Source of the DNA: Fibrobacter sp. UWB10 | GTDB lineage: Bacteria; Fibrobacterota; Fibrobacteria; Fibrobacterales; Fibrobacteraceae | Reading direction: 5' to 3' | Assembly (NCBI RefSeq): GCF_900182935.1 | Contig: NZ_FXUE01000007.1 | Location: 1-64,000 of the forward strand | Length of the DNA stretch: 64,000 nucleotides | Shown here: positions 15,066 to 29,606 of the stretch, in pieces | Layout: every line of letters starts with the position of its first letter | Position numbering within the stretch: the first letter of the stretch is position 1 | The notes under the pieces: model-generated | Databases searched by the model: none | Told to the model about the DNA's origin: nothing | What the model saw: only the letters and a program-made list of their open reading frames with translations | Position numbers and translations under genes: made by a program

Positions 15066-15090
15066 GCACCGCGTTGAGCGGTGCCTTTTT
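15066..15090. terminator. bidirectional terminator between convergent units
   Basis: GCACCGC, GTTGA loop, GCGGTGC with CTTTTTATGG on the plus side and T-rich TTTTTTATA on the minus side. It can end both the TPR-like gene transcript and the minus-strand surface-protein/peptide transcript. Confidence 0.85.
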
Positions 15091-15122: not shown

Positions 15123-15263
15123 TTACTCGTCTTGATATTCCGAGCCAAAAGATTCTTCATCTGCTGTATCTGTACAGCAACTGGCTTCCAAAATGCTCGG
15201 GCCATAATCCATTTCAACGACTTCCATGACGGGCTTGCGATACACTTTCTTTTCGTTATTCAT
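15123..15263 (-). CDS. 46-residue peptide downstream of surface protein (copy 1)
   Basis: This short ORF follows the 579-residue secreted protein by 17 nt and has its own CAGGAG ribosome site before ATG 15263. It can also be read in frame from an ATGATG that overlaps the upstream TGA stop. The peptide has KKVYRKPVMEVVEM, then SILEASCC and an acidic C-terminus. The first motif matches the two peptides encoded at 17236-17543, giving a consensus KKxYxxPxMxV followed about ten residues later by a Leu-containing xLxxS. It has no signal peptide. The function is unknown; peptides with a similar YxxP pattern near large surface proteins are familiar to me from gut Bacteroidota, which is recollection rather than a search result. 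Confidence 0.7.
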   Translation of the reverse strand: MNNEKKVYRKPVMEVVEMDYGPSILEASCCTDTADEESFGSEYQDE

Positions 15264-15280
15264 TTTAAACTCCTGCTGCA

Positions 15281-17020
15281 TCATTTGGCAATCCCCTTCT
15301 TGTTAAAGAATACGCCCTTGGTGGTAGGCTTGTGGTTTGTGCTGCGGCCCTTGAGGTCAATCCAGCGGTTAATCTTAATTGCACCCGTGACCGTGTTCAT
15401 ACGGCCAATGGCCATCGGCTTTTCGCCTTCGTCAACAAATTCGACATCGATAACTTCGGGCATATCTTCAATGGAACTTACTTCACCCTTGGCTAACGGA
15501 CGGCTAAGACGAACATCCGCATTTACCTTGCGCACATAAGCGCGCATCGGATAGGCATAAGCGCCTGCGCCAACCTTGACATATTGGCCAGCAGTGTAAT
15601 TGGCGCTATTTTCGCTAGCAAGAGCGTAGGCAAGCCCAATTTCTTCATCATTAGAATTCCAAGTCTTATATTCATAGGTTCCCTTGAAAATCCACTTATG
15701 ACTATCATCTTCTTGTTCTGCAATAGTGGCAGTCTGGAATTCAGCCTTACCACCATTCAGATTGAACGTAAGTTCGCTTCCATCCTCAACGATAACTGCA
15801 TAAGGAGTATTAGCATCCGGGAGTGCATTCGGATTCGGTTCCTTCAACTTAATATTTCTGAAAATAGCCTTCCATTTGCAATTGTTATCAATCTTAACAA
15901 CTTCCTTAAGGTAGTAGAACTTACCGTTTGTCGTAGCACCTTCAGGCAGCTGGAACGGCAACACGATGGTAGCCGGAGTTCTTGCGGTAAACACGCGATC
16001 GTATACAACCGCATCCACTTCAATGGGGTTCGAAATGCTAATAGCGTCTTCTTGAGCATCACTGATCTTAGCAACAGTATAGCCAGTGGCTTCATTTTTA
16101 TAGAAATCAACTCCCGCAGTGGGCAGTGTAGAATTCTTCGTTAAGACTCGTGCATACGCTCTCAAAATATCGTCCAAGCCATTGTCATTTGTATTGACGC
16201 AAATGGTCGCCTTATTGCTTGAAACATACACAACATCATTATTGGTTGCTTTCGTCACCTTTAAAAGCGTATCGGTGCTGTTGCTTTCTCCATTCAAAAC
16301 GGCCACTGTATCACCTTCTGCAAGCACATCATCGAATGTAACATACATCATGGTTCCTGCGGGAGATGTCAAAGTTGTCGTTTTATTAACCTTGCTTGCT
16401 GAAGGAGATGCATGCATTTCAAGGTAGTCTACGCCATCAGTAAACGAATAAGCCCCCGGCCCGTCAGTACCGATATCCATAGCAACGTCTATAGTCAATT
16501 CAATGTCTTTGCCGCCAGACGGACGCTTTTCCCAAAACTCAATTTGCATCGGTTGATTATAAGTCCATGCCTTGAGATCTGATGATGTTGTTTCTACATA
16601 TATCGAATGCTTACTACTAAGATTGACACGTTCAGTTCCTGGATCAACAATGAGACGCATATTGTTTCCAGTAACAAATCCCGACAAATGGAGAAAATCT
16701 CCATTCTGGGGCGTCACAATAAGTCTTACACTACAGTTTCTATTATCATCGCAAGGAAATTCAGAAGCAGATCCAGTTACCCCACCATCATCGTACACCT
16801 TGAAAGATTTCACTCCTACAGGAATCGTCAAATTAGCAGTTATCTTTTCAGTTGTGCTTGTCTCCGATGGTTTCGGCAGATTCACATAATAACCATTAAT
16901 ATCATCCCCTTGAAGTTCAACTAAAATTGTTTTCTCTGTATTGGCGGCCCAGGCAGAGGTTGTTGCCATGCCCATTGCAAGCAAGGCAGGAAGGCTCAAA
17001 AATTGGCTTTTGAGATTCAT
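15281..17020 (-). CDS. secreted surface protein with conserved C-terminal block
   Basis: 579 residues with a signal peptide ending TSAWA near residue 25. The N-terminus (GYYVNLP, then IPVGVKSFKVYDDGG) closely parallels the 1298-residue protein at 17540. A CUB-like stretch follows, but the Asp/Gly core is weaker than in the larger protein. From about residue 335 comes a block shared with that protein: ARTPATIVLPFQLPEGA, GKFYYLKEV, ANTPYAV, YEYKTWNSNDEEIGLAYALA, and a final region with GRMNTVTGAIKINRWIDLKG and NHKPTTKGVFFN. The end resembles C-terminal regions of exported proteins in Bacteroidota and Fibrobacter that may serve in sorting; this is inference. AGAAGGGAA precedes the ATG. A coupled peptide ORF follows. 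Confidence 0.8.
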   Translation of the reverse strand: MNLKSQFLSLPALLAMGMATTSAWAANTEKTILVELQGDDINGYYVNLPKPSETSTTEKITANLTIPVGVKSFKVYDDGGVTGSASEFPCDDNRNCSVRLIVTPQNGDFLHLSGFVTGNNMRLIVDPGTERVNLSSKHSIYVETTSSDLKAWTYNQPMQIEFWEKRPSGGKDIELTIDVAMDIGTDGPGAYSFTDGVDYLEMHASPSASKVNKTTTLTSPAGTMMYVTFDDVLAEGDTVAVLNGESNSTDTLLKVTKATNNDVVYVSSNKATICVNTNDNGLDDILRAYARVLTKNSTLPTAGVDFYKNEATGYTVAKISDAQEDAISISNPIEVDAVVYDRVFTARTPATIVLPFQLPEGATTNGKFYYLKEVVKIDNNCKWKAIFRNIKLKEPNPNALPDANTPYAVIVEDGSELTFNLNGGKAEFQTATIAEQEDDSHKWIFKGTYEYKTWNSNDEEIGLAYALASENSANYTAGQYVKVGAGAYAYPMRAYVRKVNADVRLSRPLAKGEVSSIEDMPEVIDVEFVDEGEKPMAIGRMNTVTGAIKINRWIDLKGRSTNHKPTTKGVFFNKKGIAK

Positions 17021-17160
17021 AGTATTTTCCCTTCTAGATTAAAAAGGCACACCCCGTTATGAGAGTGTGTCGAAAAATTTGCCATATGGCAAGTTTTAAG
17101 CATGGTCAGGAAGATCATACCCGTACAACATGAAAATAAACTTACCGTAATCATATAGTA

Positions 17161-17189
17161 AACTTAATTTTTACTATACAATCCGTCAA
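17161..17189 (-). promoter_or_regulatory. predicted promoter/operator of 579-aa surface protein gene
   Basis: On the minus strand: TTGACG (17189-17184), 17 bp, then TAAGTTTACT. The same TTGACR-N17-TAAGTTTA arrangement precedes the paralogous gene at 21495-21523, and both are followed about 20 nt later by CGGTAAGYT. A GTAAAC-N4-GTTTAC palindrome abuts the -35 at 17190-17205. The hexamer at -10 is not canonical, so this may be an operator or alternative-sigma site. Confidence 0.45.
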
Positions 17190-17235
17190 GTAAACTTCCG
17201 TTTACAATACAGCTATTTTCATGCCAATCTTAGAG

Positions 17236-17388
17236 TTAGACCAGCGGGTCAGGTCCGTCAACCAGATTTTCGCCAATGGGCCCGTGGATCACTGGCGTTT
17301 TATCGCCATCGCTACTCTGCAAAAGGGTAGAACGCTGTTCCAAACGGAACACCTTCATTTCAGGGGCATTATATTCTTTTTTCATCAT
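17236..17388 (-). CDS. 50-residue peptide, second in coupled pair (copy 3)
   Basis: The ORF begins at an ATG that overlaps the stop of the preceding peptide ORF (ATGA arrangement, 4-nt overlap), with GGAG about 10 nt upstream. The peptide starts MMKKEYNAPEMKVFRLEQ, continues STLLQSS and ends in a Gly/Pro-rich tail. It aligns with the peptides at 17385-17543 and 15123-15263 over KKxYxxPxMxV and LLxxS. It has no signal peptide and no cysteine. The promoter of the next minus-strand gene begins 46 bp further on. Overlap, ribosome site and similarity to two neighbours make it likely a real gene of unknown function. Confidence 0.7.
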   Translation of the reverse strand: MMKKEYNAPEMKVFRLEQRSTLLQSSDGDKTPVIHGPIGENLVDGPDPLV

Positions 17389-17543
17389 GGGTAAGTATCT
17401 CCAAAAACAGCTTCAACTTCATCGTCAGGATTACAGCCACTTTGGCATAATAATTCCTCCTGTCGATTCATCACAATCACATCCATCTCGGGCTTGCAAT
17501 ACACCTTCTTTTCACAATATACCATTATTTTTCGTTGTATCAT
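17385..17543 (-). CDS. 52-residue peptide coupled to the 1298-aa surface protein (copy 2)
   Basis: The start codon ATG (17543-17541) overlaps the TGA stop (17542-17540) of the giant secreted protein gene, an arrangement typical of translational coupling; AAGGGTG lies about 9 nt upstream inside the larger gene. The 52-residue product contains KKVYCKPEMDVIVM, LLCQSGC and an acidic C-terminus. Compared with the other two copies it has three cysteines near the motif. An internal ATG at codon 7 is an alternative start. The function is unknown. Confidence 0.72.
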   Translation of the reverse strand: MIQRKIMVYCEKKVYCKPEMDVIVMNRQEELLCQSGCNPDDEVEAVFGDTYP

Positions 17544-20500
17544 TTGACAATCACCCTTTTAAAATTGTTAATATACATTCCTTTCGTCGTAGGCTTGTGA
17601 TTAAGACGGCGGCCCTTGAGGTCATACCAACGGTCAATTTTAAATTCACCTGTCACGATGTTCATCCGCCCAACAGCAGTCGTTTTTCCGTCATCAAGGA
17701 ATTCCACATCAATCGTTTCGGGCATATTTCCCATAGAACTTAAGTAGTGATTTTCACTCTTGGCAACTGGACGGCTAAGCGGTTGAAGACGCACATCAGC
17801 ACTCTTTTTCTTGAGATACGCTCGCATCGGATTCGCAGACGAGCCTGCGCCAATTTTTCCAAATTTACCTTTTGCAATTGTCTTTTCATGGTTTCCAGCA
17901 AATGCGTATGCAAGCCCAAGTTCAGAATCATTTTCATTCCAAACCTTATATGAATACGTACCAACAAATTCCCAATTTCCGCTCAAATCGTCCTGCTTAA
18001 CAATTTCAGTTGTCTGAACAGTTGCTTTCTTACCATAATTCCAATCAAACATTAACTGATGATCATCACCACTAGTCACCACCGCATAAGGTTTGTTTGC
18101 TTCAGGAAGATTTCCTTCACCAATCCAGGTCATATACGCTTTCCAAGAATTTCCTTCTTGTTTAACCTCTGAAAGTTTATAGAACTTCGCATTGACCGAA
18201 GCCCCTTCTGGCAAACTGAACGGCAACACAACTGTTGCTGGCGTATATGGGGTAAATTCACGCGCATATAGAATTCCCTCCACTTGCAATGGTTCAGGAA
18301 TGCTTACTGTCTCCGCACCATTATAATCACCATTAATGTAAGCAATTCTATCTCCATATTCATTGTCATAAACAACAACAGCGGGCGATCCGTAATTTTT
18401 TATAACAGAAACATACAAGTTGATTCCTTCATCATTACTTCCATCTTCGTTAGTTTTGAATCGGAATGTAAGACTTCTTCCCGAGCTAAACATTTGACCA
18501 ATTTCACCGTCAACGGACATTTTTACAATTGATTGCGCATCTGTATTTTCACCATCATAAATATACAGAGAATCGCCCTCATCCGCCATCGAAAGCCAAC
18601 CTTCTACGCGGAGCGAATATCCCTCAGGAGCTGTTAGCACAAGCGTTCCATCATTATTATTGAAATAATAATCTTGATCATCTTTCTTAGCAAAAACACC
18701 TATAGAGGCCTTTTCATTTTGAATATTTATCTTTAATTCATCAGTATTCGGAATAAATACATCAAATCTGCCACTTTCTCTAACAAAATCTGCAGTCAAT
18801 ACAACATCCCCTGCAGGCATCTCAAATAGGGCTTCATTACTAGTATACCACGAACCATCAATCATATCAATTTTGTGTTCGTTATGGTCTTCATCTTTCC
18901 ATATACCCGTAATTTTATTAAGCGAACAACCATCCTCTGGATACGCCGTCAATACAATTTTTTCTCCTGGCACAGCAAGTTCTGTATTAGACACTAAACT
19001 ACCACAATACGAATAATCTAAAATAACAGGATACTCTCCACTCTCATTAACAAGTTCTAGTTCTAAATAAACACCATAATCATTTCCCACGTCATCAGTC
19101 GTAAAACGGAATGCCAAGCTTCTTCCTGTACTACGCAATTCCTCTATTTCATCCCCAGAAGAAATCCCTGCAATTTTTGAAGAATTGGCATCATTCCCAT
19201 CATAAACAACTAAGGAATCTCCGTTATCAGAAATCGCTACTTCGCCTCCGATAACATGGAATTTATAACCTTCGGGCGCAGTCAGAACAAGAGTTCCATG
19301 GCTATTGTTATAATACAACCAATCATCACCATAAGCACTATTAAAGATATTGATTTTTTTTATTCCTACAGGAATATTAATTACACGTTCACCTTCCTTG
19401 GGAATCTCGCTACCAATTTCATTTGTTCTATTAAAATAAGCCTCAACATAAATATCTTTATTCGGCATTATAAACTGAGTTTTATTAGTATACCATGATG
19501 AATCATTTTCTGCATAAAATAAACTATAACCATTATCATCATTAATAACTTCAAGGCTACTAAAGATATATCCAATAGCTGGAGATGCTATCACAGAAAC
19601 AACTTCTCCTGGAGCTGCGCTTTCTGTACTTGCAACAATTGTTCCGCCATACAGATGATTGACAACCCTTACATTATATTTTTTATTAGGATTTACAACC
19701 GTCACAATTAAATTGAGCGATTCGTAAGTTTTTCTAGACACATTTTTTATCGTAAGAATGTTCCCGGAACTATTTAAATGAACATCTCCACCTTGACTCA
19801 TCTTCAAAATTTCAGTAATTTCTTTATCCGCACCATCATAGATAGTTATGGCAGCATCCTCGCCGTCAAATTCTATGGAACCGGACAGTTGGAACCTTAG
19901 CCCTTCGGGCGCCGCCAATACAAGCGTTCCCTTGCAATTCCCCCCATCACAACCGCCCGTAACATTAAACGATTCAACATCTTCAGGAATAGTGGCAATC
20001 ACGGAATCCCGTTTCGGCATCTCTATGAAGAGACCTTCTTCAGCAGTAGTCATCTTCTCAACAAACTCGACATCTACCTCGACATTCGCATAGGGCATGG
20101 TGAAGGAGTAATCATTGCTCGTATACCATGTACCGCCAGTTATAGGGACAGGCCACCAACTACCATATTCTGATATAGCATTCGCAGAAATTCGACCAAT
20201 CATGTAACCATCGTCCGGAGTCGCGGTCAGCTTAATCGTATTCCCAGCTGATGCCGAGGACAAGCCATCTTCGACATATCCATCCCCTTTGTAACTCACT
20301 TCAACACTGTGCGTAACACTCGCATCGAGAAGTCTAATCCCCATTTTGCCATACGCTTCACATGTCGGTCTATGAACTAGCGTCAGTTTTCTTCCCGAAG
20401 TAATCCCCCTTTCATCCATCTGTTCAGCAAAGGTTCCTATAGGATCTTCAAAATCGCCATCGAATGCATAAAAACCAGAATTTGACCCATAATACTGACC

Positions 20501-21436
20501 ACCTATTTTTTCACGCAATAAAAAAACATATCCCTCGGGAGCTGTCAATACCAAAGGACTGCTAAAATCTCCACAGTCAAAATCTTCCGAGAACTGATAA
20601 TCATAGACGCCAAATACTGTCAATCCACCGGATATCGTATACCTAGCTATACCATTCCAAGGCATATCTACACGTGGTCCAACATTTTCTGCTACAAATA
20701 CAGGCGTGACAACAGCATTCGTTGCGGGCATAACAAACGAGCCTGTTGCACTAGTAAGCCAAGTGCCACCAGTTACCGCAATCGGATTTCCTCTCTCATC
20801 ATAAACCTCAATATGATCAAACGCATAGCCTTCTGCCGGAGTAGCCGTCACAGAGACCAATGCTCCCTGCAAAACATTCGTCACTGAGCTCACGGCATTT
20901 CCGCCATCAACAGGAACTATATCGACCAAGAACGGATCACTCGAACTCACAAAGGATACAGTCAAGTCCAACCCCGCAGAGGGTGTTCTGCTATCGAAAT
21001 TCTTGAAACCAAGAATCAAAGTATTCCCGTCGCTAAGCCATTTGATTGTGGCATTTCCATATTCTTCGAATACCTTATTGCTTTGAGATATCTCACTATT
21101 GTACAAAGCGAGGCTGCCACTTGACATGCCATTAAGCTGAACAGCCACCATCGTACCATTCAATCTGACAAAATGGTTTTCGGGCGCAACAAGAACAAGA
21201 TTTCCGTCGCAATTTAACGAAAAATTTTTATTAAGGCCACCATCATCGTACACCTTGAAGGTCGTCACCCCTTCCGGGATGTTTACCAGGGTATTTGTTC
21301 CTGTCGCGGGCATATTGACATAATAGCCACCATTTCCATCAGAAGTCAGTTCCACTTCTCCTGCCCAAGCGGATGTTGCAGCCATGCTCAGTGCGAACAT
21401 GGCGAAAATGCTCAAAAATTTGCTTTTGAGTTTCAT
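17540..21436 (-). CDS. giant secreted protein with CUB-like and InlB B-repeat domains
   Basis: 1298 residues, exported (signal peptide ending TSAWA). Two domain types alternate. One resembles eukaryotic-type CUB domains: LVLTAPEGYKFHV, then DNGDSLVVYDGNDANSSKI, SSGDEIEELRSTGRSLAFRF and a closing strand; several copies are visible. The other is the divergent InlB B-repeat: VSVTATPAEGYAFDHIEVYD, GGTWLTSATGSFVMPATNA and variants with WYTSN and MPxxDVxxxADF. From about residue 1060 it shares a C-terminal block with the 579-residue paralogue, ending WYDLKGRRLNHKPTTKG and a basic tail. The architecture suggests a surface adhesin or substrate-binding protein. The base composition is visibly more AT-rich than in the flanking fibro-slime genes. 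Two short peptide ORFs are coupled to its 3' end. Confidence 0.85.
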   Translation of the reverse strand: MKLKSKFLSIFAMFALSMAATSAWAGEVELTSDGNGGYYVNMPATGTNTLVNIPEGVTTFKVYDDGGLNKNFSLNCDGNLVLVAPENHFVRLNGTMVAVQLNGMSSGSLALYNSEISQSNKVFEEYGNATIKWLSDGNTLILGFKNFDSRTPSAGLDLTVSFVSSSDPFLVDIVPVDGGNAVSSVTNVLQGALVSVTATPAEGYAFDHIEVYDERGNPIAVTGGTWLTSATGSFVMPATNAVVTPVFVAENVGPRVDMPWNGIARYTISGGLTVFGVYDYQFSEDFDCGDFSSPLVLTAPEGYVFLLREKIGGQYYGSNSGFYAFDGDFEDPIGTFAEQMDERGITSGRKLTLVHRPTCEAYGKMGIRLLDASVTHSVEVSYKGDGYVEDGLSSASAGNTIKLTATPDDGYMIGRISANAISEYGSWWPVPITGGTWYTSNDYSFTMPYANVEVDVEFVEKMTTAEEGLFIEMPKRDSVIATIPEDVESFNVTGGCDGGNCKGTLVLAAPEGLRFQLSGSIEFDGEDAAITIYDGADKEITEILKMSQGGDVHLNSSGNILTIKNVSRKTYESLNLIVTVVNPNKKYNVRVVNHLYGGTIVASTESAAPGEVVSVIASPAIGYIFSSLEVINDDNGYSLFYAENDSSWYTNKTQFIMPNKDIYVEAYFNRTNEIGSEIPKEGERVINIPVGIKKINIFNSAYGDDWLYYNNSHGTLVLTAPEGYKFHVIGGEVAISDNGDSLVVYDGNDANSSKIAGISSGDEIEELRSTGRSLAFRFTTDDVGNDYGVYLELELVNESGEYPVILDYSYCGSLVSNTELAVPGEKIVLTAYPEDGCSLNKITGIWKDEDHNEHKIDMIDGSWYTSNEALFEMPAGDVVLTADFVRESGRFDVFIPNTDELKINIQNEKASIGVFAKKDDQDYYFNNNDGTLVLTAPEGYSLRVEGWLSMADEGDSLYIYDGENTDAQSIVKMSVDGEIGQMFSSGRSLTFRFKTNEDGSNDEGINLYVSVIKNYGSPAVVVYDNEYGDRIAYINGDYNGAETVSIPEPLQVEGILYAREFTPYTPATVVLPFSLPEGASVNAKFYKLSEVKQEGNSWKAYMTWIGEGNLPEANKPYAVVTSGDDHQLMFDWNYGKKATVQTTEIVKQDDLSGNWEFVGTYSYKVWNENDSELGLAYAFAGNHEKTIAKGKFGKIGAGSSANPMRAYLKKKSADVRLQPLSRPVAKSENHYLSSMGNMPETIDVEFLDDGKTTAVGRMNIVTGEFKIDRWYDLKGRRLNHKPTTKGMYINNFKRVIVK

Positions 21437-21623: not shown

Positions 21624-24600
21624 CTAGAGACCTAAATCAAGTGCGTTGGCCTTGCCGCGGCGCACGCCCCACAAGAAGTCCTGAGTGCGGTTCACCATGG
21701 TCTTGCTGCCGACCTTGATGCGGTATGCAAGTCTTGCGATGTACACGCCGGTCGAGACCAGGCGACCGTTATTTGCGCGCATGTTCCAGGCGAGGAACAG
21801 CTTGCCGTTGTTTTCGAGGCAGGTGCCCTGGCCATGTTCCTTGAACACATCGTCGTTACAGGTAATCACGTTCGAGTAGCTGTTCACGAATTCACCGAGG
21901 CTAGAGTAGTAGGTGGCCTCGTAGCGCAGTTCCGTGCTCTGGGCGACCGCTTCTACAATCTTCTGGACATCGGCTTCGGTGCCGCGCGAGAAGTTGCTGA
22001 CGTTTTCGTTGGTAAGCACGTTGTTCTTGTATGCGTCTACGATAATCGGGTCGAGGTCGAACTTTTTCTTGGCCTCGTTGATCGACATTTGACCAGAACT
22101 TACCTGAGCGATAATTTCTTCGATGGTGTAGGTGGTCTTTTCACCCTTCGAAGCGTCAGCCTTCTTGTCGGTATACACGGGGTTACCCTGTATAGCCTTC
22201 ATGATGTCTGCGATTTCGTTTTCGACAAGTTCAGCCATATTCAGGTCGCCCAAGAAATGGCCCTGCGTGCCGTATGCGGCTGCAGCCTGTTCTGCCGTCA
22301 AGATAGAAGGATCCTGAACGATTTTCGGCACAGTGGCAGATTCGCTCGTAATAATCGTCTTTGCGCTGTCGTATGCAGGCGTTCCCGGATTGAGCGTCAC
22401 AACGCCCGGGCTGGTAATGGTCACGCGCTGTTCGCCGGTAATGCGAATCCAGGGGTTGTTTGCATGCGGAGGCACGTACATCAAGTCGTTCACAAGCGAA
22501 ACTTGCGGCGGTGCCGTAAAGCGCACGGAGTCGCCCACGGCCGGAATTATGTCGGTATCGGTACCCTTCGGGAAAATCAGTTTCCACTGGTTGGTAGCAG
22601 CTGCCGAGATATCGCTTGCCTGCTTGACATCGGTGCTCATGATTCCATTTTTCCAGACATGGAACTGGAACATGTCAGAGGTCTTTTCGCCATTCTGGAG
22701 GCCTTCACTGAAGGTGAGCAAGAGCTGCGTGTTACCGTCGCTCATGTAAGACACTTCAGCTGCGGTAATGACCGGACCAATCTGGTCTTGCAACTGGCCC
22801 TGAGCCGGGAAGAACGAAGTCTTGCCATTATCAGAATAAGTGTACCACACCGTAATCTGACCGGTATAGACTTTATCGACTCCGCCGGTAAACACGGCGC
22901 CGCCAAAGCCACTGCCCGAGGCAACGATCGTTGCATGCGTACCGCCGTCCCTATAGGTCAGCTTGTAAGCATCCTGGAATTTGGTGCCAAAGGTGAACTT
23001 GGCAGAATCGAGTCTGTTCTTGCCACCAAGCGTTCCATCAAATTCAATCCAAATACTGTCGCCACGGCCATCGCCATCGCGGTCAAAGATTTCAGCAAGT
23101 TTGATTTGCGGTACAGGCGGCAAGGCAAAGTTGATGCCGTTCCAGACAGCGGTATTGCCCGAAGCCTGGCCCTTTACATACAGCGTGCCGCCCCAAAGTT
23201 CGCCAACAGCCTTCACGTAGAACGAACCCTTGCCGTTCACGAGCTTGACTTCGGTAATCGGGTTGCCGAGCGAGTCGCAAGGAATCAAATCTTCGAAGTT
23301 TGTCGAGGGATAAACCACTTCGTCGCTAGCCCAGTCTTCGGCATACTGCACGTAAACCTTATAAGACTGGCCCACCCACATGGTAACGTCTTTGTTCATG
23401 TTGAGCGGCAAGGTGTCGCTGCGAACGGTAGAACCGAGGTTCTTGCCAGTAGAATCGGCAAACACAATGTTCGGCAGTTCGTAGGCGCCCACCACAAAGT
23501 ACACATCCTTGTACTGGGAATTGTCGGAGCGGAGCGTTACGCGCAGGTAGTACACACCCGGAGCGAGGCCGCGATTGTCCTTGATCGATTCCTTGTCGAT
23601 TCTGAAGGAGTCAAAATCACTGTTCACGGTAATGCCACCGAACCACATGCCGGCCGTATCGAGTACCACACCGTTAGAGGGCAGGTTACCACCAAACAGC
23701 GTGAAGATAGAAGGACCGCGTTCAAGCGAAAGTTCCTTTTCGCCTTCGGTGAAGTCGCAGGCAAGCTTGTTCTTACGAATCTTCTGCCAGACTTCTCTGT
23801 CGATCATGCTCGGGTCGTTATTCGGGTTCTTGAGCAAGATGCTAGCTTCGGTCTTCAAGTCGATCGAAGTATGCATACGGAAGTTCGAAGAACTCGTATG
23901 GCGTTCGGCATAGAAAATGTGGAAGTTGTAGGTTTCGCCCGGAGTAAGGCCGAGGGTGTCCAGGTCTACGGCACCCGCGACCTGAGCGTGCTGGCCACCG
24001 ATGTCTACCACCAGTTTGTTATTGATGAACACCCACACGTCGTCGTCACCCAAGAAGTCGAAGTACTGGCCCGGAATGTATTCGAACGTGGCCTGCACCT
24101 TCATGGTAAAGCCGAAATTATGGTTTGCGTTATCTTTACCACCTCTCTGCTGATCATAATACGGGTTCGGAATAGTACCTGCTTCGTCAAGATACTTGAA
24201 ATCGTCCAACAGGAACATACCGCCACGGTTGGCTTCGTTACCCGTAGAAATAGCATCCTTCGAAATTTCGGCCAGCCAGAAACCTGCACTATCCATAGAG
24301 ATGTACAGGTCGCGGCAAGTCATGTTGGTAAGCTTGTTGCCCTGGGCATCGACAGCCAAGGATTCCGGGAGAAACCAAGAACTCAAGTGTTCAGTAATCT
24401 TGCAGTTTTCGGGGAACGGAGTCGCAGGAACCGGCACACCGTTTGCCCCCAACTGGGTTTCGACCATGCCGCGCATGGGGCTACCGCTACAGCCGCCAGA
24501 ACCGAAGTCTGCGCTAACACCATATTCGGGGTTACCGTTACCGTTTACGCCATCACCCTTGTTACCATGCAGCCAGTCGAACATCATGACCGGAAGCTTT

Positions 24601-25397
24601 TTCAAGGGGCATTCACCCAAAACGCCAGCAGGGTGTTCTGCATAAACGCCAGGTTCGCCTTCTTGGTTGCCCTTGACCCAAACGGTGTCGCTAAGGGCGG
24701 CCACGGAGTCAAGCTTGATTTCGGCGGTAATGTCGGGCTGAGAAGAGGTAAGACCTTGTGCGCCCACAAAGTTTTCGCCAATGGTCTGCTTAAAGTAAAC
24801 AGTGAAGTTTTCAGTGGGGGCCTTGACTGCAGCAATGAACCATCCGCAGTAATTGTCCAGCGGAATCATGGCGGTGGGGGTACCATCTACAAATACCTGT
24901 GCGTTGGTATTGGTCCAAGGCGTAAAGAAGCTGATAACCTTCATGCCCTCAGCAAGCTTACCCGGATTGTCTTTACCAGGGTCACCGGGATTGTCACCAG
25001 CACCTGGGCCACCCGGATTTGTCGGGCCACCGGGGAATCCACCTTGAGATGTGAATTTCCAAGTACCATCGTTAGAAATGGTGATTCTTGCCTGCTGCGA
25101 AGTCGGGTACAAATCGCTAAACGAAATGCCTTCCGAAGTCAGGAGGTTCTGGCAGCTAGCGTCAGTAAAGACGTACAAGTCGTAATTGGGCAAGACCCTA
25201 CGACTTTCGATGTTGAAACTCACGCTACGGTTCGGAATGCTAGAGCAGCCCGTAGCCCATTCATCTTTGGCATTGTTGTAAATAGCGTAGTAGAGTTCGC
25301 CTTCGTGAGTAGCTGTAAGCGTATACGTCGCCGCGAAAGTCGCGGGAACTAGTAAAGCGAGCAACTGAGTTGCTCTCTTGATCAAATTACACCTCAT
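21624..25397 (-). CDS. fibro-slime domain protein, paralogue 1
   Basis: About 1257 residues. I start at ATG 25397, 6 nt after AGGAG, rather than the ATG directly against it. A signal peptide ends near PATFAA. A beta-rich module (VISFFTPWTNTNAQVFVDG) is followed by a conserved LPVMMFDWLHG and the fibro-slime domain (TIGR02148), with FDFLGDDDVWVFINNKLVVD, IGGQHAQ and FHIFYAERH, a PA14-like fold. Later come a series of beta domains (AYIFDRxGxGxxDSIWI-type, VTSAEVxYxxDGNTQL-type), a linker with PxxLTAEQAAAAYGTQGHFLG, and a C-terminus with YIARLAYRIKV and DFLWGVRRG. Fibro-slime proteins are outer-surface proteins implicated in cellulose adhesion in F. succinogenes. It is the closest paralogue of the gene upstream. 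Confidence 0.93.
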   Translation of the reverse strand: MRCNLIKRATQLLALLVPATFAATYTLTATHEGELYYAIYNNAKDEWATGCSSIPNRSVSFNIESRRVLPNYDLYVFTDASCQNLLTSEGISFSDLYPTSQQARITISNDGTWKFTSQGGFPGGPTNPGGPGAGDNPGDPGKDNPGKLAEGMKVISFFTPWTNTNAQVFVDGTPTAMIPLDNYCGWFIAAVKAPTENFTVYFKQTIGENFVGAQGLTSSQPDITAEIKLDSVAALSDTVWVKGNQEGEPGVYAEHPAGVLGECPLKKLPVMMFDWLHGNKGDGVNGNGNPEYGVSADFGSGGCSGSPMRGMVETQLGANGVPVPATPFPENCKITEHLSSWFLPESLAVDAQGNKLTNMTCRDLYISMDSAGFWLAEISKDAISTGNEANRGGMFLLDDFKYLDEAGTIPNPYYDQQRGGKDNANHNFGFTMKVQATFEYIPGQYFDFLGDDDVWVFINNKLVVDIGGQHAQVAGAVDLDTLGLTPGETYNFHIFYAERHTSSSNFRMHTSIDLKTEASILLKNPNNDPSMIDREVWQKIRKNKLACDFTEGEKELSLERGPSIFTLFGGNLPSNGVVLDTAGMWFGGITVNSDFDSFRIDKESIKDNRGLAPGVYYLRVTLRSDNSQYKDVYFVVGAYELPNIVFADSTGKNLGSTVRSDTLPLNMNKDVTMWVGQSYKVYVQYAEDWASDEVVYPSTNFEDLIPCDSLGNPITEVKLVNGKGSFYVKAVGELWGGTLYVKGQASGNTAVWNGINFALPPVPQIKLAEIFDRDGDGRGDSIWIEFDGTLGGKNRLDSAKFTFGTKFQDAYKLTYRDGGTHATIVASGSGFGGAVFTGGVDKVYTGQITVWYTYSDNGKTSFFPAQGQLQDQIGPVITAAEVSYMSDGNTQLLLTFSEGLQNGEKTSDMFQFHVWKNGIMSTDVKQASDISAAATNQWKLIFPKGTDTDIIPAVGDSVRFTAPPQVSLVNDLMYVPPHANNPWIRITGEQRVTITSPGVVTLNPGTPAYDSAKTIITSESATVPKIVQDPSILTAEQAAAAYGTQGHFLGDLNMAELVENEIADIMKAIQGNPVYTDKKADASKGEKTTYTIEEIIAQVSSGQMSINEAKKKFDLDPIIVDAYKNNVLTNENVSNFSRGTEADVQKIVEAVAQSTELRYEATYYSSLGEFVNSYSNVITCNDDVFKEHGQGTCLENNGKLFLAWNMRANNGRLVSTGVYIARLAYRIKVGSKTMVNRTQDFLWGVRRGKANALDLGL

Positions 25398-25586
25398 CCA
25401 CATCTCCTGGGTTTTAAGCCCAACTTACCTAACTTTATAACGTATATAGTAGAAATAAATTTTTTTTGCACAAAAATCAACTAGGCCCTACCCGAAATCC
25501 GTTAATTCTGCGTAACAATCGTGTAAATCGCGCTTTTTGGGGGTAAAATTCCCGAAAAACCGGCTATTTTCCCCCTAAAACAGAAA

Positions 25587-25627: not shown

Positions 25628-28600
25628 TTAAATTCCGAGGTCGATGGCGTTCACCTGACCGCGACGCACACCCCAGAGGAAGTCCTGGGTGCGGTCGGTA
25701 ATGACCTTGGTGTTCACCTTGATACGGAACTTGAGGCGGGCAATGTAGACACCTGTCGATGCAAGGCGACCGCTATTGGAACGCATGTTCCAAGCCAAGA
25801 AGAGTTTGCCGTCGTTGTCGAGGCAGTTCTGCTTGCCACCTTCCTTGAAGATGTCGGCGTTACAGGTGATGATGCCCGAATGGCTGTTCACGTAATGACC
25901 GAGGCTCGAATAGTAAATCGCTTCGTAGCGCAGTTCGGTCTTGTCGGCCACAGAGCTCACAATCTGCTGGATATCAGCCGGAGTGCCGCTCTGGTAGTTT
26001 TTCAGGTTATGACTGGTCAGCAGGCCATTTTCGTAAGCGTCAACAATGACTTCGCTCAAGCCATATTGCTTTTTAGCTTCCTTGATGGACATTTGACCGT
26101 TATCGACCTTAGCAATGACCTCTTCCAAGGTGTAGGTTTTCGGAGTGGTGCCAGCTTCTTCAGCAGCCTCGGCTTCGTCCTTATCCACAAGCATGTTGGA
26201 TTCTTTTACGACCTTCGAAATTTCGGCGATTTCGTTTTCCACGAGTTCGGCCATGTCGAGGTCGCCCAAGTAGTGCCCCTGCGTGCCGTATTCAGCGGCC
26301 ACCTGTTCAGCCGTGAGCACGGTTTCGCCACCTACCAACTTGGGAACGGTTGCCACTTCGTTTCTGATGATTTCGCGGGCCGTTTCGAAAGCGGGAGATT
26401 CCGTAGAAAGGCTTACCACCTTCGGGCTCGTGACAGTCACCTTCTGTTCGCCAGTCACGCGAACCCAGGGGTTCAATTCGTGCGGGCCTACACCCACAAG
26501 GTCAAGAGCCAAGCCCAACTGAGACGGCGGCATAAAGCGCACGGAGTCACCCACAGCCGGAATCACGTCGGTATCGAGACCCTTCGGGAAAATCAGCTTC
26601 CATTCGTTTTCAGGCGTTGTCAGAATGTCGCTTGCACTCTTGACAGCGCTATCCTGCACGTTGTTTTTCCAGCAATGGAATCGGAACAAGTCGGTAGTAG
26701 CATCGGTGCCGCTAACGCCTTCGCTGAACTTCATGGTCAGCTGGGTGTTACCGTCTTTGAGGTACTTGACTTCGGCAGAGGTGATTACCGGGCCCACCTT
26801 ATCGGTCAAGGCGCCTTCGACCCAGAACGGAGACTTTTTGCCTTCTTCGTCGGTATAGGTGTACCAGATGGTATCGATCTTGCCCAAGTACTGGGCGTCG
26901 GCAGTTTCCTTACCAGTATAAATGATAGAGCCAAAGCCAACTCCAGTTGCCGTCACCGTTGCGGTCAGTTCGCCATCCTTGTAGGTTGCCTTGTAAGAGC
27001 CGAAATCTTCGGGACCGAACGTGAACGTGAGCGAGTCCAGAACACTCTGGCCACCAAGCGGCTTGTTGAACTTGATCCAAATACTGTCGGCGCGGCCTTC
27101 GCCCGTGCGGTCAAAGATATAGGCGGTTTCAACCTGCGGTACCGGCGGCACAGCAATGTTGATGTTTGTCCAATGAACTTCTTTGTTCTTTGCACCGTAG
27201 CAATTAAGAGTAAGCGTTGCGTTAACAACTTCGTCGGTTGCCTTGACAAAGAACGAAGCGCGGCCTTCCATGAGCACCACTTCGCTAACGGGGTTACCCA
27301 TAGAATCGCATACGACAAGGTTCGGAGTCGAGGTCGTAATCTTGACTGCAATGCCGCTGTAAATGGAGGCCCATTCTTCGGCGTACATCACGTGAACAGG
27401 ATAAGAACGACCGGCCCAGAGCTTTTCGGTTTTGTCGAGGTTGATGGGCAGGGTATCGCTCGAAATATCGCGACTGAGTTCGTCACCAAATGCGTTCCAG
27501 TACTTGTCGAAGTGTATTGTATCCTGCGTATCGAAGTCTACGATAAAGTAGGTCGAATCCTTGACGCTTGCAAATGCAATGTTCGGCAGTTCGTAAGGTT
27601 CAATGGTGAACGGAATATCCTTGTAGTCATCCGGGTTGCTCTTGAGGCGCACGCGAACGTAGTAGTTTCCCGGCGGCAGAGCTTGAGCCTTCGTGATAGC
27701 CTTGGTGTCGATGGTAATCATCGTGAAATCGTTGCTTACCGTAATGCCGCTGTAGTAGGCGGAATCGAGCGTCTTGAGAGCGACACCGTTCTTGTCGAGG
27801 CTCTTGCCGTAAAGCGTAAAGTTAGACGGGCCGCGTTCCGTGTGCTGCTTTTCGGGGCTTGCAGAGAAGTCGCAAGCGAGAACCGTTTCGCGCACCAGTT
27901 GCCACACTTCCTTGATAATCAACTTCGGGTCATCAGACAGGTCCGTAAGGAACATGCTTGCTTCGGCCTTCAAGTCCATAGAAGTGCGCATCTTGAAGTT
28001 CGATTCGTTGCGGTGACGTTCCGCGTAGAAAATGTGGAAGGAGTATGTTTCGCCAGGAATTAGCTTGTCTGCAGGATTGTTCTTGCCAATGGTATCAAGC
28101 TTGACTTTACCTTCAATCTGCGTATGCTGACCACCGATGTCCACCACCAGTTTGTTGTTGATGAACACCCAAACGTCGTCGTCACCCAAGAATTCAAAGT
28201 ACTGACCAGGCACGTATTCGAAGGTAGCCTGGATCTTCATGGTGAAGCCGTAGTTGTGCGTACCATAGTCAGAGGTGATGTTGTCGTACATGGGGTTCGG
28301 GATGGTGCCAGCTTCATCGAGGTACTGGAAGTCGTCCAAGAAGAACAAACCTCTTTCGGGGCTTTCGGTATTCTTCTGACCGAACCAGAAACCATCGTCG
28401 GTCAAGGAAAGTTCCAAGTCGCGGCAAGTGGCGTTGGTGTACATGTTGCCGTCGCTACCTTGAATAGCTTCGGGCAAGAACCAGTTGCCGAGGTGTTCTG
28501 TCACCTTGCAGTTGCTCGGGAAATTGGACGCCGGAACGGGAACGCCGTTGGGGCCCAGTTCGCGTTCGACCATGCCCTTCATAATCTGGTGGCCATTGTC

Positions 28601-29512
28601 GTTCTTGCATCCGCCCGTACCGAAGTCCTGGCTTGTAGTGCCGGCCTGGGCAATTGTGTTTTCTTCGTCAGAACCATCGCCATGCAACCAGTCGAACATC
28701 ATGACCGGGAGCTTTTTGATGGGGCAGTCGCCGAGTTCGCCGGGGAATGCCGTATAAAGTTCGGGTTCGTTGTACTTGGAGCCGACAATCCAAACGGTGT
28801 CAGAAATCTGGAGCAAGGAATCCAGTCGGATTTCCTGTTCCACAGGGATTTCTTCCTTGGAGGCACCTTCGGCGCCGATATGCAAATCACCAATCGTTTG
28901 CTTGAACGAAACGAAGGCGTCCTTGGGTGTCAGTACGGCGCGATATTCGAACCAACCGCAGTAGGGGCTACCCACCGGAGTGGTATAGTCGGCCTTGCCG
29001 TTCAGCATAATGACCACGCCCGTGTTGCTCCACGGAGCCAAGAAGCGAATCGTCTTTTTTGCGGGTTCCACGATTACCGGTTTGGTCGTCGTGGTGGTAA
29101 GCGTACCGTCGGGATTGATCTGAATCCAGACCTGGTAGACCTGCTGGCTGTCGACACCGTTCTTGTATTCGGGGAACAGCTCGGCGAGGAAAGGTTCATG
29201 GCCTTCGTTCAAGTACGTGGTGCAGGAATCCTTGCCTTCGACGCAGAAAGAACCGAAACGCAGTTGGCGCACGTCTTCTCTACCCTGTCGGTCGGAACCT
29301 TCAAGACGTTCCTGAGTGAAGCAGACTTTAAACGTACCGTCGTCTTCTTTGCTCAGTTGTTTATACTTGAAATTGGCTTCGTTATCGGCGTAGAAAAGGT
29401 TATTGCCATCGTAAATAACATGGGCTATGGCAACACAGTCCTGCGCAAATGTGTTAACAACTAAAAGGGTCAAGCATAATGCCAAACCCCGGAAAAAGTT
29501 TTTGCACTTCAT
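25628..29512 (-). CDS. fibro-slime domain protein, paralogue 2
   Basis: About 1294 residues from ATG 29512, which has GGAGAG at good spacing and begins a proper signal peptide (KNFFRGLALCLTLLVVNTFA). The layout follows paralogue 1: the TIRFLAPWSNTGVVIMLNG module, LPVMMFDWLHGDGSDEE, the fibro-slime domain (FEFLGDDDVWVFINNKLVVD, IGGQHTQ, FHIFYAERHRNESNFKM), repeated beta domains, a helical linker (LTAEQVAAEYGTQGHYLG) and C-terminal ARLKFRIKV and DFLWGVRRG. It lies 230 bp upstream of paralogue 1 with a terminator between, so each has its own transcript. It is likely a cellulose-adhesion or slime-layer surface protein. Confidence 0.93.
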   Translation of the reverse strand: MKCKNFFRGLALCLTLLVVNTFAQDCVAIAHVIYDGNNLFYADNEANFKYKQLSKEDDGTFKVCFTQERLEGSDRQGREDVRQLRFGSFCVEGKDSCTTYLNEGHEPFLAELFPEYKNGVDSQQVYQVWIQINPDGTLTTTTTKPVIVEPAKKTIRFLAPWSNTGVVIMLNGKADYTTPVGSPYCGWFEYRAVLTPKDAFVSFKQTIGDLHIGAEGASKEEIPVEQEIRLDSLLQISDTVWIVGSKYNEPELYTAFPGELGDCPIKKLPVMMFDWLHGDGSDEENTIAQAGTTSQDFGTGGCKNDNGHQIMKGMVERELGPNGVPVPASNFPSNCKVTEHLGNWFLPEAIQGSDGNMYTNATCRDLELSLTDDGFWFGQKNTESPERGLFFLDDFQYLDEAGTIPNPMYDNITSDYGTHNYGFTMKIQATFEYVPGQYFEFLGDDDVWVFINNKLVVDIGGQHTQIEGKVKLDTIGKNNPADKLIPGETYSFHIFYAERHRNESNFKMRTSMDLKAEASMFLTDLSDDPKLIIKEVWQLVRETVLACDFSASPEKQHTERGPSNFTLYGKSLDKNGVALKTLDSAYYSGITVSNDFTMITIDTKAITKAQALPPGNYYVRVRLKSNPDDYKDIPFTIEPYELPNIAFASVKDSTYFIVDFDTQDTIHFDKYWNAFGDELSRDISSDTLPINLDKTEKLWAGRSYPVHVMYAEEWASIYSGIAVKITTSTPNLVVCDSMGNPVSEVVLMEGRASFFVKATDEVVNATLTLNCYGAKNKEVHWTNINIAVPPVPQVETAYIFDRTGEGRADSIWIKFNKPLGGQSVLDSLTFTFGPEDFGSYKATYKDGELTATVTATGVGFGSIIYTGKETADAQYLGKIDTIWYTYTDEEGKKSPFWVEGALTDKVGPVITSAEVKYLKDGNTQLTMKFSEGVSGTDATTDLFRFHCWKNNVQDSAVKSASDILTTPENEWKLIFPKGLDTDVIPAVGDSVRFMPPSQLGLALDLVGVGPHELNPWVRVTGEQKVTVTSPKVVSLSTESPAFETAREIIRNEVATVPKLVGGETVLTAEQVAAEYGTQGHYLGDLDMAELVENEIAEISKVVKESNMLVDKDEAEAAEEAGTTPKTYTLEEVIAKVDNGQMSIKEAKKQYGLSEVIVDAYENGLLTSHNLKNYQSGTPADIQQIVSSVADKTELRYEAIYYSSLGHYVNSHSGIITCNADIFKEGGKQNCLDNDGKLFLAWNMRSNSGRLASTGVYIARLKFRIKVNTKVITDRTQDFLWGVRRGQVNAIDLGI

Positions 29513-29606
29513 CCGTTCTCTCCATAAATGTCCCACACACAAGACACAACCGGAGTAAATAATAGTTTATTTTGCGCTATCTTAAAGCAAACATTCCTTT
29601 ACTATG

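Follow-up and report, generated by a model that had tools for sequence, protein, structure and literature searches.

The closest described counterparts of the locus analysed here are the Linear Polyphosphorylated Peptides (LPP) of the lpp cluster of Paenibacillus alginolyticus (Popov et al. 2026, PMC13381572) and the phosphorylated lasso peptides of the paeninodin and Bsf type (PMC8498205, PMC10368454). In the LPP system, LppB binds the YxxP motif of the precursor leader, a role demonstrated by mutation of N33 and D70; LppK phosphorylates core Ser3, and LppS (S29/H68/D93) removes the leader. LPP were described as a family of unknown role that, according to the authors, is restricted to Bacillota (PMC13381572). 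In the Bsf lasso system, BsfK phosphorylates core Ser3, and the RRE enhances this phosphorylation (PMC10368454). Here we report the LPP gene set in Fibrobacterota and Bacteroidota, with scattered precursors that are paired with surface proteins.

The window, a 64,000-nucleotide stretch of DNA from Fibrobacter sp. UWB10 (contig NZ_FXUE01000007.1), contains two units in which a surface-protein gene is followed by short ORFs. The features of these units are as follows.

17540-21436, minus strand: surface protein A (1298 aa), with a signal peptide, InlB-type B-repeats and a C-terminal domain ending RWYDLKGRRLNHKPTTKGMYINNFKRVIVK
17385-17543, minus strand: putative precursor peptide 1 (52 aa as annotated; conserved part from near EKKVYCKP), with YxxP at residues 15-18, "LL" at 31-32 and the conserved Ser35 (codon 17441-17439)
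17236-17388, minus strand: putative precursor peptide 2 (50 aa), with YxxP at residues 6-9, "LL" at 22-23 and the conserved Ser26 (codon 17313-17311)
15281-17020, minus strand: surface protein B (579 aa), a paralogue of A with the same C-terminal domain
15123-15284, minus strand: putative precursor peptide 3 (53 aa as annotated), overlapping surface protein B by 4 bases, with YxxP at residues 15-18, "IL" at 31-32 and the conserved Ser35 (codon 15182-15180)
15066-15084, minus strand: GC-rich hairpin followed by a T-tract, a likely terminator after peptide 3 (the scan lists the plus-strand reading)

The initial annotation had described A, peptide 1 and peptide 2 as three minus-strand ORFs joined by ATGA-type junctions, with two mutually similar peptides. 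All three ORFs were confirmed at their positions, both junctions are 4-base overlaps, and K, K, Y, P, M, V, L, and S were invariant when peptides 1-3 were aligned. The two-peptide arrangement is real but incomplete; peptide 3 and paralogue B, which form a unit 2.3 kb beyond the A/peptide 1/peptide 2 unit, had been missed. Surface protein B shared 45% identity with A in its C-terminal part. The proposed CUB/InlB character of A held for the InlB-type B-repeats, which matched PF18998 in four stretches above the gathering cut-off (97.1 bits, 5.8e-28), but not for CUB, as PF00431 reached only 19.5 bits in this protein against a gathering cut-off of 21.4. Translational coupling had also been proposed, and the overlaps at the window junctions do exist. 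However, a second ATG inside peptide 3 (15263) follows an AGGAG at a distance of six bases and appears a likelier start than the overlapping ATG, and most homologous peptides in the genus begin roughly 5-40 bases past the stop of the surface gene, or behind the first peptide in a tandem. The 4-base overlap is a local feature and not a general one, and strict translational coupling is therefore not established.

Peptides of this family were present in 57/61 Fibrobacter genomes, with up to 13 per genome and often as tandem pairs. Peptide 2 differed from its copy in the same species by 5 substitutions, all of them synonymous, leaving the protein identical. Across 96 close pairs, pN/pS was 0.21 in the leader and 0.48 in the core. 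The peptides are under purifying selection. Frame conservation and synonymous/nonsynonymous rates were the two checks named in the initial annotation; the peptide frames proved to be conserved in relatives, and the rates point to selection. That the ORFs are short, and that each window copy overlaps the preceding stop, might suggest chance ORFs or decayed remnants of duplication behind surface genes. This reading is already refuted by purifying selection and by the genus-wide conservation of frame, leader, and Ser, and we give it practically no weight; the original argument against chance is borne out by the spread of the family in the genus and by the codon comparison.

Among 118 distinct peptides, the Tyr and Pro of YxxP were invariant, Met was found at Y+5 in 81%, Leu at Y+16 and Y+17 in 92% and 89%, and Ser at Y+20 in 92%. 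The leader pattern, KKxYxxPxM...LLxxS, was fixed across the family, and the core, with a median of 18 residues, was variable, with a high content of Asp, Glu, and Gly (D+E about 26%). At the sequence level, a fixed YxxP leader joined to a variable acidic core is the pattern of a leader-plus-core precursor. When 45 members were scanned singly against 18,950 NCBI models, the sole recurrent matches were lasso precursor models, namely, the paeninodin family (6/45 peptides, best E 6.7e-4) and cyanobacterial lasso precursors (5/45 peptides, best 0.11).

In the UWB10 genome, the C-terminal surface domain was found at seven places, and the peptide profile also gave seven matches. Besides those of A and B, the genome has five copies of the domain, and four of these are each immediately followed by one of the four peptides encoded outside the window. 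The same domain was present in 56/61 Fibrobacter genomes. The peptide alignment was too divergent for scanning the genome collection. The 62 peptides that could be assessed in the genus came from the peptide search alone; a gene with the C-terminal surface tail lay at most 350 bases upstream of 56 of them. Peptide-core similarity and surface-tail similarity were correlated (Mantel r = 0.50, p = 0.001), a value that includes shared descent and so is by itself no proof of functional matching. The peptide-surface units are inherited as pairs. The earlier proposal that conserved short peptides travel with a surface protein is thus strongly supported. At one place in the UWB10 genome (L013/L014, G000:C4:156162-159085), tandem surface-protein copies each carry an in-frame stop in the matched stretch, and the first copy has no peptide behind it; units that have lost their peptide may therefore exist. 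The Fibrobacter partner tail, DLKGR...KGxYxxNGKKVIVK, looks similar to the T9SS type A sorting domain (TIGR04183 / PF18962). This assignment was rejected, as 0/12 tails scanned matched TIGR04183 or PF18962 even at E = 10.

A search for PqqD-type RREs gave essentially a single match in each Fibrobacter genome, in many cases at a distance of 2-4 kb from a surface-peptide unit. It gave no RRE in two genomes, G014 and G041, both of which are without peptides. In UWB10 the RRE belongs to an operon on contig C2, a different contig from that of the window, with the order surface protein, peptide, nucleotidyltransferase (PF14907, 4.8e-41), HprK-like kinase, S24/S26 signal-peptidase-like protease, RRE (PF05402, 7e-12), and ABC exporter (ABC, 3e-26). 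The HprK-like and S26-like assignments go back to matches below the curated cut-offs (TIGR04352, 4e-4, and TIGR02228, 4e-6). Each of the 12 Fibrobacter loci read contained the five genes, always next to one or more copies of the surface domain; in three loci the operon was not continuous, being interrupted by a surface copy in L116 and L117 and split in L125. In the protease, S27, H65, and D80 were invariant in 12 sequences, and in the RRE, N35 and D74 were invariant in 14 sequences from two phyla. AlphaFold models of the C-terminal domain of the surface protein and of the HprK-like kinase were unusable (mean pLDDT 38 and 35, respectively). A radical-SAM "FibroRumin" candidate was dropped, the operon having no radical SAM gene and the idea no match in the literature.

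The occurrence of the peptides follows that of the operon. Across 168 Fibrobacterota genomes, peptides were found in 75 and the HprK-like kinase in 73, with both in 71, peptides only in 4, the kinase only in 2, and neither in 91. For the 80 genomes within the genus, the corresponding counts were 70, 4, 2, and 4 (Fisher p = 6e-4), and the single positive genome outside the genus has both peptide and kinase. The six discordant genomes possibly reflect incomplete assemblies. Two Fibrobacter genomes, G040 and G032, carry the kinase with neither a recognised peptide nor a recognised surface domain, which could mean either diverged precursors or loss of the substrates. The tight pairing with surface genes (56/62) and the core-tail correlation would also be expected if the peptides served the neighbouring surface protein in unmodified form, as accessory subunits or chaperones, and the RRE operon had some other function. 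We regard this as improbable, since peptide presence tracks the maturation operon over the 168 genomes, the Fibrobacter operon itself often begins with a peptide-surface unit, and the combination of a fixed YxxP leader and a variable core is typical of a precursor and not of a folded chaperone.

The leader and the RRE lead to the same structure. The best PDB match of the RRE profile was TfuB1 (6JX3 chain B, E 1e-4), and the sole match of the peptide profile was the TfuA leader MEKKKYTAPQL (6JX3 chain A, E 0.21), which is weak alone; 6JX3 is one co-crystal that holds both. N35 and D74 of the RRE align with Asn and Asp of TfuB1 and with Gly and Gln of PbaB1, a WxxP-binding RRE, and they correspond to N33 and D70 of LppB. 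The LppB structure (9x8z) was not among the PDB matches of the RRE profile at E up to 10.

Compared with LPP, the Fibrobacter system has the same five-enzyme set, consisting of an SpI-like S/H/D leader peptidase, a discrete RRE, an HprK-like kinase, an NTP transferase, and an MsbA-like exporter. It also shares the YxxP leader, a variable core with a conserved Ser close to its beginning, the Asn/Asp pair of the RRE, and, in the operons read, the lack of a cyclase. S27/H65/D80 of the protease correspond to S29/H68/D93 of LppS by motif order, not by direct alignment. The hosts differ, being Fibrobacterota and Bacteroidota here and Bacillota for LPP. One operon is accompanied by up to about 13 scattered precursors, whereas LPP clusters contain one to three, and the precursors are paired with surface-protein genes, whereas LPP genes are found in capsule loci. 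In the leader, LLxxS at Y+16 to Y+20 takes the place of FETxxS at Y+13 to Y+18. Because the published Bacillota consensus, YxxPxVLxHQxIxFETxxS, is not exactly matched (Tyr-Ser spacing of 20 versus 18, and LL for FET), we classify the system as an LPP-like variant and not as a member of the family.

The paeninodin- and Bsf-type phosphorylated lasso peptides resemble the system as well. Their leader, too, carries YxxP or WxxP and binds to a discrete RRE, a core Ser is modified by an HprK-like kinase and a nucleotidyltransferase, and an ABC exporter is present. The YxxP motif and the discrete RRE, two features of lasso systems, are present here, and lasso precursor models were the only families matched repeatedly, so that the peptides might be seen as true lasso precursors matured by the same RRE. 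However, the B2 cysteine leader protease of lasso systems (PF13471) was found in 0/61 Fibrobacter genomes, while a control genome gave a match, and this absence largely refutes the lasso reading; the systems are therefore not classed as lasso systems. Furthermore, no Asn-synthetase-like macrolactam cyclase occurred in any operon read, and the peptides have no invariant Gly1 with a ring-closing acid at a fixed spacing. With a signal-peptidase-type leader peptidase in place of B2 and no cyclase in the operon, the product is expected to be linear, and a lasso product is highly improbable.

Counterparts were also found in Bacteroidota. A tblastn search against plasmids led to a Phocaeicola massiliensis locus, in which a peptide, MKENSIETYEAPKVEIIEVEVEKGFATSGGGENGNWTD, precedes a large signal-peptide protein and the five genes come next. 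In a Bacteroidaceae MAG (G170), 7/7 peptides lie directly in front of an ORF with a surface-lipoprotein-like N-terminus, and one of these ORFs weakly matches the Mfa1 fimbrillin. The kinase profile matched 39/295 Bacteroidales genomes. All of 20 fetched Bacteroidota loci contained the kinase. The protease, RRE, and exporter were missing from few of them, and over half had the nucleotidyltransferase; YxxP peptides were found beside 5/20. In two Bacteroidales loci (L202 and L203), a T9SS-sorted giant protein with a genuine T9SS domain is directly followed by the RRE and kinase genes, and in L203 by a YxxP peptide as well, which suggests that the pairing is kept even where the partner protein takes a different secretion route. 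One Bacteroidales locus (L184, G225:C101:8500-21308), with the operon order RRE-ABC-NT-HprK-S24, has a kinase that matches the Fibrobacter profile at E 1.2e-113, far above other Bacteroidales, which could be due either to recent transfer or to assembly contamination. The Fibrobacter peptide profile gave weak matches only in Prevotella oral taxon 299, and the annotation around nucleotidyltransferase matches on Segatella copri plasmids contained no module.

Taken together, the short ORFs are very probably LPP-type precursors of modified peptides, which would be matured in trans and whose product would act with or on the adjacent surface protein. The modification is probably phosphorylation, judging from the enzymes encoded. 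By homology with the described systems, the leader KKxYxxPxM would be bound by the discrete PqqD-like RRE, which is encoded once per genome and would present the peptide to the HprK-like kinase for phosphorylation of the conserved Ser at Y+20. If cleavage takes place after "LL", this Ser would be core residue 3, as in the Ser3 of LPP and Bsf cores. The PF14907 nucleotidyltransferase may attach a further group to the phosphate, the archaeal-type signal-peptidase-like Ser/His/Asp protease would cut off the leader, and the MsbA/type-I-like ABC protein would export the linear acidic core. Action in trans is inferred because the operon sits on another contig. Judging from the pairing of the genes, the product would then work at the surface of the cell, either together with the protein encoded next to its precursor or on that protein. 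The initial annotation had offered four roles for the peptides. The modified peptide is favoured by the maturation operon elsewhere in the genome, and the chaperone-like role found no support; the mature product could possibly be a signal or a secretion partner.

The peptides might also be modified in the same way and the product serve as an antimicrobial or a signal, in which case the surface protein might confer resistance to it, be its receptor, or provide a platform for its delivery. Conflict-type genes would fit the variability of the exported cores, the presence of several precursors in one genome, and the patchy distribution in Bacteroidales (39/295). On the other hand, the units have no immunity-like small membrane protein, nearly all sites carry the same surface domain, and the cores, with about 26% D+E, are acidic and polar. 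We consider this unlikely but conceivable. Action with or on the surface protein, which we prefer, allows a wider proposal that we put forward only tentatively. Fibrobacterota and Bacteroidota might have in common a system for surface assembly or decoration, in which each large adhesin-type protein is coexpressed with a small phosphopeptide of its own. A single central operon for RRE, kinase, protease, and exporter would mature all of these phosphopeptides, and each of them, once exported, would bind or anchor its surface protein or modify it covalently.

These results place the LPP gene set in two Gram-negative gut/rumen phyla and show that it is nearly universal in Fibrobacter. As the precursors are tied to particular surface-protein genes, the role of LPP becomes testable, in that the peptide would act with the neighbouring surface protein. 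LPP-type precursors would also account for many short unannotated ORFs behind the surface genes of Fibrobacter and in front of some surface genes of Bacteroidaceae. From the arrangement it seems that a single maturation operon can act on many precursors scattered over the genome, and such precursors would escape genome mining that looks for clusters.

Two further observations were made around the units in the window. Directly upstream of them, two large paralogous secreted proteins are encoded on the minus strand (21624-25403 and 25628-29542), which share a conserved FEYVPGQYFxFLGDDDVWVFINNKLVVDIGGQH stretch and which we take to be of the fibro-slime / PA14-like type; no peptide gene of the precursor family was found behind either. 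Between peptide 2 and surface protein B, a terminator-like hairpin (17048-17069, minus strand) lies 28 bases before the start of B and is accompanied by several GTAAACTT-type repeats at about 17140-17215. The hairpin and repeats could possibly form a terminator, an attenuator, or a regulator site.
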